This document shows positions 6,789-12,230 of a stretch of 36,705 nucleotides of DNA, piece by piece. This DNA comes from Acidobacteriota bacterium (GTDB lineage: Bacteria; Acidobacteriota; Terriglobia; Acidiferrales; UBA7541), in assembly GCA_021818865.1 (NCBI GenBank), contig JAKASX010000030.1:1-36705 (forward strand), read 5' to 3'. The position numbers were made by a program, and so were the translations under genes. A model generated the notes under the pieces. That model was not told the DNA's origin. It made no database searches and was given only the letters and a program-made list of their open reading frames with translations. Position 1 is the first letter of the stretch. The number at the start of each line of letters is the position of its first letter.

Positions 6789-7805
6789 ATGGAACGACGC
6801 CATTTCATCGCCATACTGGGCGCGGCGGTTGTGGGCACCGCGCTTCCCTATTCGCTCTACCATTATCTGGAGTCCGGTCTGGATTCCCAGGAAGTCGGAG
6901 TGCGGCGGTATCTGGACGCGGGACCGGACGCGGCGTTCGAACTCATCACGCCGAATGACGATTTTTACGTGACGACGTCGCGGAACACGCCGGACGTGGA
7001 CCCACGAACGTTTTCGTTTGCGATCGACGGATTGGTGAACCATCCGTTGCATTTCGATTACCAGCAGGTACGCGAATTGCCGCCCTACCGGACGACGATG
7101 ACGCTCGAATGCATTTCGAATCCGGTGGGCGGGAAATACATCGGCAACGCGCGATGGGCGGGAACCCTGCTGAAACCGCTGCTCAACCGCGCCGGATTGC
7201 ACCCCGCAGCAAAATTCGCGATCAGCCACGGAGCGGAAGGCTATACGACGGCGATTCCGGTGGAGCGGCTGGTTTCACCGCTGAATTTTCTGGCGTGGGA
7301 GATGAACGGCGTCGAGCTGCCGCGCCGGCACGGGTATCCGCTGCGGGTTTTCTTCCCCGGAAAATACGGGATGAAACAGCCGAAATGGATCACGCGAATC
7401 GAGCTGGTGGATCACGACTACACCGGCTACTGGGAGGCGCAGGGGTGGTCGCAGGATTGCGAGCGGCAGATTCAATCGACGATCGACTGGCCCCGGAGCG
7501 GCGCGCGCGTTTCCGGATCGCCGATCGTCGTGTGCGGCTACGCGCTCGCTTCGGAAGTGGGAATTTCGCGCGTGGAGATTTCGACCGACGGCGGACGGAC
7601 GTGGCAGGCGGCGGACATTTTCAGCAATCCTTCGCCGATCGTGTGGGCGCTGTGGAAATACGAATGGCGGAACGCGACGCGCGGCGCGCACACGCTGAAA
7701 GTGCGCGCGATTGACGGCAGCGGGAGGATGCAAACGGCGAAAAACGCTCCCGATTGGCCGAGCGGCGCGACCGGGTACCACACGATTCAGGTTACCGTCG
7801 ATTGA
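6789..7805 (+). CDS. Molybdopterin-dependent oxidoreductase, sulfite oxidase family
   Basis: The protein has 338 residues. The N-terminus (ERRHFIAILGAAVVGTALP) looks like a Tat signal or membrane anchor, as expected for a periplasmic molybdoenzyme folded in the cytoplasm. The cofactor domain (about 45-225) contains the Mo-ligating cysteine, Cys108, in TMTLECISNPVGG. The C-terminal part (about 235-338) is the Mo-co dimerisation domain, with VEISTDGGRTW and YEWRNATRGAHTLKVRAIDG. It has no heme domain, so electrons must go to a separate cytochrome. The substrate could be sulfite or another oxyanion or sulfoxide. It ends in a 14-bp convergent overlap with the cytochrome c-copper protein gene. Confidence 0.9.
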   Translation: MERRHFIAILGAAVVGTALPYSLYHYLESGLDSQEVGVRRYLDAGPDAAFELITPNDDFYVTTSRNTPDVDPRTFSFAIDGLVNHPLHFDYQQVRELPPYRTTMTLECISNPVGGKYIGNARWAGTLLKPLLNRAGLHPAAKFAISHGAEGYTTAIPVERLVSPLNFLAWEMNGVELPRRHGYPLRVFFPGKYGMKQPKWITRIELVDHDYTGYWEAQGWSQDCERQIQSTIDWPRSGARVSGSPIVVCGYALASEVGISRVEISTDGGRTWQAADIFSNPSPIVWALWKYEWRNATRGAHTLKVRAIDGSGRMQTAKNAPDWPSGATGYHTIQVTVD

Positions 7806-9159
7806 GATTCGGCGCCTTTTTCGCGGCGTGCGTGGTGTGCGTCGCGGGATGGCGCACGAAAAACTCATATTTGTTTTCCCACGGCGGAATCGCGATATCG
7901 AAAAATCCGATGAACATCTCATCGAAATCCTGATCGCCCCAGCGGACGGCGACGTTGGGATCGGGATTGTAGGGATTTTTCCAGGAATTGTCGTACCAGC
8001 CGATCGCCTGGAGCTTGGTTCCCGCCTTGAGGTGCAATGGCTTCGCCAGTTCGTAGTGGAGCTGCCAGTTGAAGTTGTAGTGGACGTAGAGGAGCGTCTG
8101 CACCTTTCCGTCTTTGTGGAGGATGTTGAATTCGAAGCGCTTTCCGCGCAGGTGCATGTGCGGAAAAATATCGAGAAGGATCGCGTTGTTCGGCAACGTG
8201 CCCCACGCCTCGACGGGAAAATTCGACGCTTCGGGCGGAATCAGGAAACTGCTGTTCGTCAGCTGGAGCGTGACCACGCGGTGCTTCACCGGCGCCTTGG
8301 CGAAGACCAATCCGACGCTGGCGCGGACCTTCGCCGCGTGACCCATCGGCATGAAATGGAGCTGAAAAACGAAATCGGAGCCGGCCCGAACGAATTTCGC
8401 GAGGCCATTGGGCCACTCGTCGGGCGGACTGCCGGGCGCGTAGACGATCAGCAAACGAGCGTCGTTCCAGCGAGCGTCGCGGCGATCCTGCGCATCTTTC
8501 AAGCTGGACGCGGTGAATGGCACACCGATCGGCGCGTGCGGCAGCCAATGCGAATGCGGCGGGCGAACGTAGACGACGGCGTGATGAACGAGGCCGGGAA
8601 TGGAGGGACGCAACTCGACCATCTGGATCCATTGGTTTCTGGTGAACCCCGTAGGCACGATTTCGTAGGTGTAGGACATGATGCCGTGGGCGGGAACCTG
8701 AACGGGCACAGGCATGCGAACGATTTTATCGGGCTTGGGAATCCGCCAGCCGGTGGCCCAGCGGCGCGCGGGCGGCGCGCCCTGGGGATTGCCGGCCGGA
8801 GCGCCAGCCGCGGCCCAGGCGATGATGGTGCGGATTTCGCGGCGCGAGAGCGTGGGATTATTCGAGAATTTTCCGAAGCGTGGATCGGCGAACCAGGGCG
8901 GCATCGCGCGTTTCTCCACGCTCTTCGCGATCGCCTGGGCGTAGGGGCGCGTTTGGGTGTAGGTGACGAGCGGCATCGAAATTTCGCCGGCGTGATGGCA
9001 ACTTTGGCAGCGCTGCTGGAGGATGGGCAGGACGTTCTTATAAAAAGTGGGCGCGTTGGAGCGCGCTCGCGCTTGCGGCGCAATGCCGAGTGCAACGTAC
9101 GCGCCTGCAAGAAGCAAGCCGGCCCATTTCCGCGTTTGACGAATGCTATGCCCTGCCAT
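7792..9159 (-). CDS. Cytochrome c fused to a PHM/DBH-like copper type II monooxygenase
   Basis: The protein has 455 residues and a signal peptide. An N-terminal c-type heme site is Cys51, Cys54 and His55 (CQSCHH), with a later Met as possible sixth ligand (KRAMPPWF). The rest follows the two-domain copper type II, ascorbate-dependent monooxygenase pattern. The first copper pair His192-His193 lies in GLVHHAVVYV and His268 in FQLHFMPMG. The second-site ligands His334 and His336 lie in FPHMHLRGK and Met415 in DFDEMFIGFF. By family knowledge these are the six copper ligands of peptidylglycine and dopamine monooxygenases. The heme may deliver the electrons that ascorbate supplies in animals; that is inference. 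The start is ATG 9159; an in-frame GTG at 9177 is possible, and neither has a clear ribosome site. Confidence 0.85.
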   Translation of the reverse strand: MAGHSIRQTRKWAGLLLAGAYVALGIAPQARARSNAPTFYKNVLPILQQRCQSCHHAGEISMPLVTYTQTRPYAQAIAKSVEKRAMPPWFADPRFGKFSNNPTLSRREIRTIIAWAAAGAPAGNPQGAPPARRWATGWRIPKPDKIVRMPVPVQVPAHGIMSYTYEIVPTGFTRNQWIQMVELRPSIPGLVHHAVVYVRPPHSHWLPHAPIGVPFTASSLKDAQDRRDARWNDARLLIVYAPGSPPDEWPNGLAKFVRAGSDFVFQLHFMPMGHAAKVRASVGLVFAKAPVKHRVVTLQLTNSSFLIPPEASNFPVEAWGTLPNNAILLDIFPHMHLRGKRFEFNILHKDGKVQTLLYVHYNFNWQLHYELAKPLHLKAGTKLQAIGWYDNSWKNPYNPDPNVAVRWGDQDFDEMFIGFFDIAIPPWENKYEFFVRHPATHTTHAAKKAPNLNRR

Positions 9160-9296
9160 GAAGCCTGAAGTGTTCACCCGTGTTCTGCGCCTCGCAGCCC
9201 CGTATCACAGCCTTCAGGCTGCGCGTGGTTCTGCCTGCTCCCTTTTTCGGTCACCTCTCACTGGATGCGGCGGACGAAAAAGCCGTTGCCGTGCGG

Positions 9297-10349
9297 TCAG
9301 CGTTTTGGGGCGTTTGCGCCGACGAAGATGGATTTCGGCATCATCACGTGGACGCCGACGCGGTCGTCGACGAGTTCATTGATGCGAACGTTGCCGGCGA
9401 CGCTGGTGAGCATGTAGGCGCGGCCTCGCGTGAGATGTTTTTCGGTGACGAGGAATTGGATCATGTTGCGAACCGCCATTTTCGTCGCTTCGCGAAGGCT
9501 GTGGCTGAATCCCATCGAGATGTAATCGGTGGGAGTTTCCGCTTCGGGCCAGAGCAGGTGCATGTGCTTGCGAACGATGAACTGGAACGTGCCGATGAGA
9601 GATGTTTCCATGGCGGTGATATCCACTTCGCCATCGCCCTGGCCGGCGTGGCCGTCACCGACGAAAAACAGCGCGCCGGGCGCCTGAACCGGCAAATAGA
9701 GCGTGGTGCCGGCGACGAGTTCCTTATCGTCCATATTGCCGCCGTGGAACCATGGCGGGACGCTGCTGATTTTTCCCATCATCACCGGCGGCGCAACACC
9801 CATGCTGCCGAAAAACGGCCGGATGGGAACGTGGATTCCCGGCGCGAAGCGGGCGAAACCGCGCTTGGCATCGAGCGGAATGATGATCATGCGGGCGTAG
9901 GGGAAATCATCGGGCAGAAAACCTTCGCCGGGAACGAAGGCGTTGTAGGCGTAAGGAATCGCGAGACGTATTTTCAGGATTTTCACTTCGAGGACGTCGC
10001 CGGGTTCGGCGCCATCCACGTAGATCGGACCGTCGAGGATGTGACCGCCGGGACCGCGGTCCTTCACCTGGGCGAAGATCTCGCTGAGCGCCGCCTCGAC
10101 TTCGGAGGGTGGAACGCCGGCGCGCTCGAGCGCGGTGGGGCTCGAGGTGATCAACGTGCGCGCCTGGACGACGTCGCCCGAATGGATGCGGAGCACGGGC
10201 GGAACGTGGGCGCTGTAATAGCCCCAAGCGACCGTTTTCGGCGTCGGGTCGAGCGTATAGAAATGACCGGGCTGCGGCTTTTGCGCGCCAAGCGCGGCGG
10301 CGGCAAACGCGAGCGCGGCGGCGATGGCGGATAACGCGATTTTACGCAT
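9297..10349 (-). CDS. Secreted acetamidase/formamidase family protein
   Basis: The protein has 350 residues. A signal peptide (MRKIALSAIAAALAFAAAAL, then GAQ) is unusual, as classical FmdA enzymes are cytoplasmic. The body shows family landmarks: TVAWGYYSAHVPPVLRIHSGDVV, then GPIYVDGAEPGDVLEVKI, then FVGDGHAGQGDGEVDITAMETS. By family knowledge these enzymes hydrolyse short-chain amides such as formamide or acetamide to ammonia and the acid. GGGAGGGAG lies just before ATG 10349. The gene reads in the same direction as the cytochrome-copper gene, 137 bp further on, and is divergent from the PQQ-propeller gene. Confidence 0.88.
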   Translation of the reverse strand: MRKIALSAIAAALAFAAAALGAQKPQPGHFYTLDPTPKTVAWGYYSAHVPPVLRIHSGDVVQARTLITSSPTALERAGVPPSEVEAALSEIFAQVKDRGPGGHILDGPIYVDGAEPGDVLEVKILKIRLAIPYAYNAFVPGEGFLPDDFPYARMIIIPLDAKRGFARFAPGIHVPIRPFFGSMGVAPPVMMGKISSVPPWFHGGNMDDKELVAGTTLYLPVQAPGALFFVGDGHAGQGDGEVDITAMETSLIGTFQFIVRKHMHLLWPEAETPTDYISMGFSHSLREATKMAVRNMIQFLVTEKHLTRGRAYMLTSVAGNVRINELVDDRVGVHVMMPKSIFVGANAPKR

Positions 10350-10387: not shown

Positions 10388-10416
10388 TTGACAGCGGGCC
10401 TGATTGTACTCACGAT
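10388..10416 (+). promoter_or_regulatory. Possible promoter of the PQQ-propeller lipoprotein gene
   Basis: A perfect TTGACA (10388-10393) is followed after 17 bp by CACGAT (10411-10416), which matches the -10 consensus at only three positions. If real, it places transcription start near 10423 and rules out the TTG at 10404 as a translation start. Confidence 0.35.
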
Positions 10417-10475
10417 TAGCCCCGGGCCCCTTCCCTTTTCCAATTGGGCGGGCTCGATCGGGCGGCGCGTCGAGC

Positions 10476-12230
10476 GTGGGTTTTTCGTGCGCCTACCTGC
10501 ACACACGGGAGGACGCCATTACCTCAGATCGTCGAGCCAAACGTACCGTTTCGCAATTTGCCGCCTTCGCCGCGGCGCTGATTCTGGCCGCGCTGGCGGG
10601 ACTTGCCGGATGCAGCCGGCGGCATTCGGAAGCGAGCGAAAAATCGCCGAATTCGGCCCCTGGCGCAGCGGCATTCATTCCCGACAAGACCGTTCCCTCG
10701 CCCGTTTACGCGTCGGTTCCGGCGACACCTGCCGACGACGTGCTCACGTACCACAACAATCTGGCGCGCACGGGCGTGAATCCGCACGAAACGATTCTGA
10801 CGCCGGAGAACGTGAACGCCGGTTCGTTCGGCAAATTGTTCAGCGATCCCGTGGACGGGTTCGTTTACGCGCAGCCGCTTTACCTGGCGGGAGTGGAGAT
10901 TCCGGGCAAAGGGCCGCGGAACGTCGTCTACGTGGCGACGGAAAGCGACACCGTCTACGCATTCGACGCGGATAAAGCGGGACCGCCGCTGTGGCGCAAG
11001 AGCCTGCTCGCCGGCGGCACGGCGCCGACCGGACAGGATTTCGCGTGCGGTCAGATCGTGCCGCGCGTGGGCATCACGAGCACGCCGGTGGCGGATTTGG
11101 CGACGAAGACGATTTACGTGGAAGACATGGTGAAGCACGGGCACGGCGAACATGCGACCTACGCACAGCAACTGCACGCGCTGGACCTCGGGACGGGCGC
11201 GGAGAAACTCGGCGGGCCGGAGACGATCGCGGGATCGGTGCCGGGCAAAGGAGCGGGGAGTAAGAACGGGAAAATCGCCTTCGACGCCTTCCTGCACATG
11301 GATCGGCCGGGACTCGCGCTTTCGCGCGGCGTGATTTACATCGCGTTCGGGTCGCACTGCGATTTGGGCGATTACCACGGATGGGTTTTTGCGTATGGAG
11401 CACAGCATCTGCGGATGCGCGGCGTTTGGAATGCCACGCCGAACGGATCGCAGGGAGCGATCTGGGAAACGGGCGACGCGCCGGCCGTGGATTCCGAGGG
11501 CAATCTTTACGTGATGACGGGCAACGGGACATTTGACGCGAATTCCGGCCAATCCGATTATGGCGACAGCGTGGTGAAGCTCGGATGGCGCGGGAATACG
11601 TTACGGGCGTTCGATTACTTCACTCCGTACGATCAGGAAAAGCTCAACGAGCAAGATCTGGATCTTGGTTCGGGAGGATTGCTGCTGCTGCCGCACGCGG
11701 CGGGCCAATTGCCGCTGGCCGCCGGCGCGGGGAAATCGGGCGTGATTTACGTGATGAATCGAAACAATCTGGGCCATTTCAACGCGCAGGGCGACAGCCA
11801 GATCGTGCAGCGAATTTCCGGCCAAATTTCGGGAAGTTTCAGCACGCCAGCGTATTGGAATGGGCGGGTTTACTTCGGGCCGGTGAGCCAGCCGATCAAA
11901 GCGTTCGCGTTTTCCCACGACAGGCTGTCGGGCGAGCCGATTTCGCAGACGCCGGACCAGTTCGATTATCCCGGGGCGACGCCGTCGATTTCATCGAATG
12001 GGAACAGGAACGGAATCGTGTGGGCGCTCGATACGAGCAACTACGTTTCCGGGCGGCCGGCGGTGCTGCACGCATACGACGCCGCGAATCTTTCGCGGGA
12101 GCTTTACAAGAGCCCGTCGAGCGGGGCGGGAGGGCCGGGCGTGAAGTTCAGCGTGCCAACCGTGGCGCACGGTCACGTCTATTTCGGGACGCAACATTCG
12201 CTGGAAGTGTACGGATTGGTGAAACGCTGA
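10476..12230 (+). CDS. Lipoprotein with PQQ/WD40-like beta-propeller
   Basis: This is a secreted lipoprotein of about 570-585 residues. A basic stretch (SDRRAKRTVSQ), a hydrophobic core and the lipobox LAGLAGC give a class II signal. The mature part starts with DVLTYHNNLARTGVNPHETI and carries repeated propeller blades such as VVYVATESDTVYAFDA, TIYVEDM, GVIYVMNRNNLGHFNA and HVYFGTQHSLEVYGL, typical of PQQ-repeat proteins. I do not see the cysteine pair or other catalytic marks of quinoprotein alcohol dehydrogenases, so it may be a binding or scaffold protein. The start is uncertain. GTG 10476 is the nearest standard codon, but the best ribosome site (GGGAGGA, 10507-10513) sits 4-5 bases before an ATT at 10518, which would give an ideal lipoprotein signal. 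Confidence 0.82.
   Translation: MGFSCAYLHTREDAITSDRRAKRTVSQFAAFAAALILAALAGLAGCSRRHSEASEKSPNSAPGAAAFIPDKTVPSPVYASVPATPADDVLTYHNNLARTGVNPHETILTPENVNAGSFGKLFSDPVDGFVYAQPLYLAGVEIPGKGPRNVVYVATESDTVYAFDADKAGPPLWRKSLLAGGTAPTGQDFACGQIVPRVGITSTPVADLATKTIYVEDMVKHGHGEHATYAQQLHALDLGTGAEKLGGPETIAGSVPGKGAGSKNGKIAFDAFLHMDRPGLALSRGVIYIAFGSHCDLGDYHGWVFAYGAQHLRMRGVWNATPNGSQGAIWETGDAPAVDSEGNLYVMTGNGTFDANSGQSDYGDSVVKLGWRGNTLRAFDYFTPYDQEKLNEQDLDLGSGGLLLLPHAAGQLPLAAGAGKSGVIYVMNRNNLGHFNAQGDSQIVQRISGQISGSFSTPAYWNGRVYFGPVSQPIKAFAFSHDRLSGEPISQTPDQFDYPGATPSISSNGNRNGIVWALDTSNYVSGRPAVLHAYDAANLSRELYKSPSSGAGGPGVKFSVPTVAHGHVYFGTQHSLEVYGLVKR

Follow-up and report, generated by a model that had tools for sequence, protein, structure and literature searches.

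A putative c-type cytochrome joined to a predicted dicopper core of the PHM/DBH superfamily in Acidobacteriota: family membership, possible electron source and gene neighbourhood

Among the copper enzymes of animals, PHM and DBH are textbook examples; by them peptide hormones are amidated and noradrenaline is made. Their copper ligand set performs O2-dependent hydroxylation, a reaction that consumes electrons, and the animal enzymes take these from free ascorbate. The window analysed here, an acidobacterial stretch of 36,705 nucleotides, contains a gene whose product seems to combine such a copper core with an N-terminal heme domain. The core is already known in kind, and it is the fusion to a heme that sets this protein apart. 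To what family does this protein belong, from where might its copper sites be supplied with electrons, and do the genes around it suggest what it acts upon?

The features discussed are collected in Table 1. The gene is present as a single copy in the source genome, which is 3.97 Mb in size and 95% complete. The ORF also has an ATG in frame at 9159, giving a 455-aa version; this start, the one used in the original prediction, is the likelier because the probable signal peptide begins there (hydropathy peaks at 2.0, in the segment starting at residue 19). Residue numbers are those of the 461-aa frame throughout; those of the original prediction, made from the DNA letters, were 6 lower.

Table 1. 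Positions of the copper-enzyme gene, its domains and putative ligands, and its neighbours in the window
Feature	Positions	Strand	Remarks
SUOX-fold molybdoenzyme gene	6789-7805	plus	PF00174 E 2.3e-42; convergent with the copper-enzyme gene
Cytochrome c / PHM-DBH-type copper protein gene	7792-9177	minus	461 aa from GTG 9177; stop codon 7792-7794
Probable Sec signal peptide, residues 7-39	9061-9159	minus	Basic start, hydrophobic core and A-R-A end in the sequence
Putative c-type cytochrome domain, about residues 43-130	8788-9051	minus	PF13442 E 0.0091, below cut-off
Heme-attachment motif CQSCHH (C57, C60, H61)	8992-9009	minus	Conserved in relatives
M92 of MPPW, probable second axial heme ligand	8902-8904	minus	Conserved in relatives
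Predicted dicopper PHM/DBH core, about residues 147-449	7831-8739	minus	Model residues 108-410 (+39) structurally aligned to PHM
H198-H199, copper H-site ligands (PHM H107, H108)	8581-8586	minus	Conservation and PHM alignment
H274 in QLHF, copper H-site ligand (PHM H172)	8356-8358	minus	Conservation and PHM alignment
H340-M-H342, copper M-site ligands (presumably PHM H242, H244)	8152-8160	minus	Conservation and PHM alignment
M421 of DEMF, copper M-site ligand (presumably PHM M314)	7915-7917	minus	Conservation and PHM alignment
Acetamidase/formamidase-family gene, signal-like N-terminus	9297-10349	minus	PF03069 E 1.9e-32; directly upstream of the copper enzyme
PQQ-type beta-propeller protein gene	10404-12230	plus	PF13360 E 0.0018, below cut-off

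In Pfam searches the window protein matched Cu2_monoox_C (E 0.0079) and Cytochrome_CBB3 (E 0.0091), both weakly and below cut-off: its PF03712 score was 16.1 bits compared with a curated cut-off of 23, and there was no match to PF01082. Among 59 relatives, 56 matched PF03712 at E 1 or better and one matched PF01082. Cut-offs of this kind are limits of score and do not describe a biological trait. A single-sequence phmmer search of the PDB with the window protein brought up nothing relevant, and its NCBIfam search gave no match; as both were blind to the copper enzyme, profile and fold methods were needed. When a profile built from 30 diverse members of the family was compared with the PDB, the first families to emerge were PHM, with the rat enzyme at E 1.1e-7, and DBH, with the human enzyme at E 3.7e-7, and the alignment with PHM paired all six copper ligands one for one (HH, H, HxH, EM). 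An AlphaFold model of the mature protein (pLDDT 92.7, pTM 0.90) gave, in a Foldseek search of the PDB, a best 31 rows that were all PHM or DBH. In VIA comparisons it was aligned with PHM over 274 residues (Z 24.1, rmsd 2.9) and with DBH (4zel) at Z 23.8, the next fold being that of PNGase F at Z 9.1, so that the double jelly-roll fold of PHM appears to be matched at a score far above any other. On the strength of its ligands and its modelled fold, we place the copper enzyme in the PHM/DBH superfamily, as a branch of its own, with a two-jelly-roll core predicted to provide three His for one copper site (CuH) and two His and a Met for the other (CuM).

How well are the corresponding residues kept across the family? 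In 90 aligned relatives (from which ORFs of less than 300 aa and duplicates had been dropped), C57 was found in 90/90 and C60, H61 and M92 in 89/90 each; for the copper H-site the figures were 88/90 for H198 and for H199 and 89/90 for H274, and for the M-site 88/90 for H340 and for H342 and 86/90 for M421. Five of the 90 rows depart from the pattern, and three of these were left out as incomplete (in one the heme part is encoded in a different frame, and two run off the end of the locus). Of the 87 readable relatives, 85 have the complete ligand set, with H198, H199 and H274 present in 85, 85 and 86, and H340, H342 and M421 in 85 each; all ten residues are invariant in 30/30 deliberately diverse family members. 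The original prediction had picked out CQSCHH and the six copper ligands, and had named homologues lacking them as one of two results that would count against it; the homologues, checked for such loss, keep the ligands to the extent just given, and the pairing with PHM agrees. Its wider view, of a PHM/DBH-type copper core fused to a c-type heme domain, is likewise upheld by profile, model and conservation, although M92, the likely second heme ligand, was absent from its list of ligands. As the copper and heme residues are conserved together, it seems that the fusion is old and that both halves have been under selection. The two real exceptions, L019 (4917-5981) and L021 (4824-5957), are among the most divergent rows: they retain CXXCH and the methionine of MPP, have lost most of the copper ligands, and are possibly non-copper offshoots.

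The N-terminal domain is taken to be a c-type cytochrome on account of the CXXCH motif and the conserved M92, both the attachment motif (C57, C60, H61) and the presumed distal methionine being kept, and of weak matches in fold. Modelled alone (pLDDT 87.6), it gave no Foldseek match at E 0.001, and its best VIA match was the monoheme cytochrome c PccH (4rlr; Z 7.0, rmsd 2.1, 76 residues aligned). Around CXXCH the family profile matches PccH and, in its heme region, hydrazine synthase alpha (E 0.0047 and 0.0049). The similarity is modest, and neither of these is fused to a copper core as the window protein is.

Might the enzyme nevertheless be simply a bacterial PHM or DBH? PHM, which is the N-terminal half of PAM, shares with it the two-jelly-roll core, and the His3 CuH and His2Met CuM sites in the same order and with the same motifs (vHH, qlHy, HxH, dEM), the M-site ligands of PHM being, we assume, residues 242, 244 and 314; the acidobacterial enzyme differs in its added heme c domain. 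PHM has conserved disulfides, and these are absent from the copper enzyme, since C57 and C60 are the only cysteines in the whole window protein. The positions of R240, N316 and Y318, which we take to be the peptide contacts of PHM, are occupied by F338, I423 and F425, and among the 87 relatives R is found at the first in 4, N at the second in 0 and Y at the third in 10. With these positions hydrophobic, the substrate is probably not a glycine-extended peptide bound in the PHM way. The resemblance to DBH and MOXD1 includes, besides the core and its ligands, the presence of a further domain at the N-terminus (MOXD1 having all of these as DBH does), but in DBH, an ascorbate-using enzyme, this is a DOMON domain, whereas the window protein has a CXXCH cytochrome in its place and gave no Pfam match to DOMON at E 1. 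The peptide contacts, the disulfides and DOMON are thus all missing, and to judge from its sequence the enzyme is neither PHM nor DBH. The H-site numbering used in Table 1 (H107, H108 and H172 as CuH ligands of PHM) is that given in PMC6123673.

Relatives of the copper enzyme were detected at E 1e-20 in 59/95 genomes of the order, and in a sample of 396 acidobacterial genomes in 87 by single sequence and 88 by profile (three candidates were scored per genome in the profile survey, so that copy numbers from it are floors). A profile count gave 366 matches in 28 genomes, picked mostly because they had matches, with up to 31 in one genome. One scan of genome contigs gave 20 loci, of which one was titled Planctomycetota and one Acidimicrobiia, and a search of 72,556 plasmid records gave no match to the copper enzyme. 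In the open-licence literature, as represented by titles and the beginnings of abstracts, no account of a bacterial fusion of cytochrome c and PHM was found; the family is probably present in databases, where automatic Pfam labels may exist, and undescribed in the literature searched.

How, then, might the heme and the copper sites work together? We lean, with moderate confidence, towards a copper hydroxylase of the PHM/DBH superfamily that is exported and has its reductase, the heme, built in, acting as follows. Once exported and loaded with heme and copper, as we suppose it to be, the enzyme would take electrons in the periplasm one at a time from the quinol or cytochrome c pool by way of its heme, which would pass them to CuH. 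O2 and substrate would be bound at CuM, and two electrons and O2 would serve to hydroxylate a C-H bond, by analogy with PHM and DBH, without free ascorbate; it is plausible that the electrons come from the heme where the animal enzymes rely on ascorbate. A heme domain is known to feed a copper monooxygenase in the case of cellobiose dehydrogenase and LPMO, although there the heme is of the b type, the two are separate polypeptides, and the copper is held by a histidine brace in an unrelated fold. The electrons could conceivably run in reverse, the copper core oxidizing a substrate and the heme c handing the electrons on to the respiratory chain: a c-type cytochrome fused to an enzyme is often the way out for electrons, as is known from periplasmic dehydrogenases with a fused heme domain, and one paralogue locus (L163) also holds a PQQ/cytochrome c protein. 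We think this unlikely, because the full CuH and CuM set is conserved, and in PHM and DBH that set does electron-consuming O2 hydroxylation. Ranking after it, and also unlikely, is a hydroxylase of the same fold in which the heme is a sensor or a structural group, the reducing work being done by small ascorbate-like molecules, such as the free ascorbate of the animal enzymes; here it is difficult to see why CXXCH and M92 should be as conserved as the copper ligands, or why the heme domain should be kept in very divergent members, including those with added TPR repeats. That the protein merely binds or stores copper, without catalysis, seems very improbable, given that motifs of the catalytic type, including the Met ligand, are so generally conserved, and that a storage protein would need no heme.

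A further suggestion, to which the original prediction pointed, is that the copper enzyme works together with the molybdoenzyme encoded next to it and would receive the electrons for its heme from that enzyme. The two genes lie side by side in the window and in G055, but they are convergent, overlapping tail to tail by 14 bases, and therefore cannot share a transcript. Among 45 distinct loci of relatives (flanks of 1.5 to 8 kb; L002 and L004 left out as duplicates of L080 and L090), the molybdoenzyme was near the copper enzyme in two, both from the genus of the window itself. In G057 the two are more than 3 kb apart, and in the congeneric G054 the molybdoenzyme is kept and the copper-enzyme gene is absent. 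Co-occurrence was scored across the 95 genomes of the order, with partial matches counted as present, at cut-offs of about 53% identity or more for the copper enzyme (38 genomes), E 1e-30 for the molybdoenzyme (15 genomes) and about 61% identity or more for the acetamidase/formamidase (41 genomes). A molybdoenzyme orthologue accompanied the copper enzyme in 6/38 genomes and occurred in 9/57 genomes without it (odds ratio 1.0), so the answer to the question posed with the original prediction, of whether the fusion travels with sulfite-oxidase-type genes, is for this order negative. Gene direction, synteny, co-occurrence and the G054 locus all led us to reject this partnership, to which we attach hardly any probability, and the functional tie originally proposed is not supported. 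As to the molybdoenzyme itself, it keeps the Cys in TLECISNP; the CAGNRR arginines of sulfite oxidase are missing in the alignment, and it is thus probably not a sulfite oxidase.

Within the genus, the more consistent companion of the copper-enzyme gene is the acetamidase/formamidase gene. The two are present together in 3/5 genomes, adjoining each other still in G057, and both are absent from the other two. In G054 the window order of a zinc-finger (anti-sigma-like) gene, a 183-aa gene, and genes for a carboxypeptidase, the molybdoenzyme, the PQQ protein and an amidase is kept, with the acetamidase/formamidase and copper-enzyme genes missing and about 200 bp between the molybdoenzyme and PQQ genes; the PQQ-type beta-propeller gene, divergent from the acetamidase gene in the window, is the right flank of this empty site. 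From this joint presence and absence, it seems that the unit that comes and goes consists of these two genes, its gain or loss within the genus being, on so small a tree, a matter of one or two events. The pairing was found in two of the 45 loci, both from the same genus, and in none outside it. Across the order, the acetamidase/formamidase was present in 22/38 genomes with the copper enzyme compared with 19/57 without it (Fisher p 0.021, a value that ignores descent), and in the largest genus the association was weak (11/14 compared with 15/22).

This pairing is the reason for a working guess about the substrate, for this genus only: the copper hydroxylase might attack the carbon next to the amide nitrogen of an N-substituted amide, and the primary amide released could be converted to acid and ammonia by the exported acetamidase/formamidase encoded upstream. 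The chemistry of PHM on an N-acylglycine yields a primary amide and glyoxylate. With an acidobacterial PAL-like query, no PAL-type lyase was found at E 1e-15 in the 5 genomes of the genus (90-97% complete), so that the dealkylation would be spontaneous or brought about by another enzyme; a weak repeat match to the PAL-like protein was present in G000 (E 3.5e-8).

Viewed in full, as a phylum-wide, often multi-copy and self-sufficient branch of the PHM/DBH superfamily in which a covalently attached heme c replaces ascorbate, with periplasmic breakdown of N-substituted amides in conjunction with acetamidase/formamidase in this genus, the picture is a tentative one, and we think it less likely than not. 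If it is true, dicopper hydroxylases driven by cytochromes would exist in large numbers in bacteria, beyond the animal type that is fed by ascorbate. The family would probably also be a part of the aerobic chemistry that Acidobacteriota carry out in soil. How CuH is supplied with electrons in PHM and DBH, and how these then pass to CuM, is still debated; with a covalently attached, spectroscopically visible donor in a bacterial relative, the one-electron steps could be timed individually. The distance to be crossed is about 11 A, according to PMC6123673.

A shared operon was looked for in the 45 loci of closer relatives, but none of the neighbours was conserved throughout them, and no conserved neighbour gives a clue to the substrate or to the source of electrons. 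A set of neighbours including an MreB-like protein, which recurs in up to 14 loci, reflects local synteny, mostly in one genus. Lyases of the PAL type were considered as partners among the paralogues, as in PAM. Among the lyase and copper-enzyme matches listed (150 against 143), three pairs lay within 3 kb where 1.45 would be expected by random placement, and among the same matches four lay within 5 kb where 2.14 would be expected; copper-enzyme rows from G000, G055, G057 and G073, two from G025, and the L168 pair were not part of this count. There being no clear excess of adjacency, and no such lyase in the genus, this partnership was rejected. NHL propellers are encoded near paralogous copper enzymes at L165 (4014-5183, minus strand) and L168 (8290-9486, plus strand), the former of which can be aligned from end to end with the PAL portion of rat PAM (3fvz, E 1.2e-37), and several acidobacterial genomes have up to 29 PAL-like matches.

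Finally, we draw attention to some features of the paralogues themselves. Neighbouring or tandem pairs of copper-enzyme genes are found in L008, L056, L059, L060, L119 and L129, the second gene of L129 (1452-2414) being without a heme domain. C-terminal TPR repeats occur in some paralogues (L121, L124, L126); the protein from L124 (1820-4312, plus strand) is of 831 aa, with about 200 extra residues before the heme and the TPR repeats after the core, and its extra N-terminal part looks thioredoxin-like by eye, although it gave no Pfam redoxin match at E 0.01. Lastly, a protein of some 290 aa that looks secreted and has no Pfam match is encoded near the paralogue in 10 of 55 distant-paralogue loci (L137, L138, L140, L142-L146, L149 and L172), mostly from one genus.
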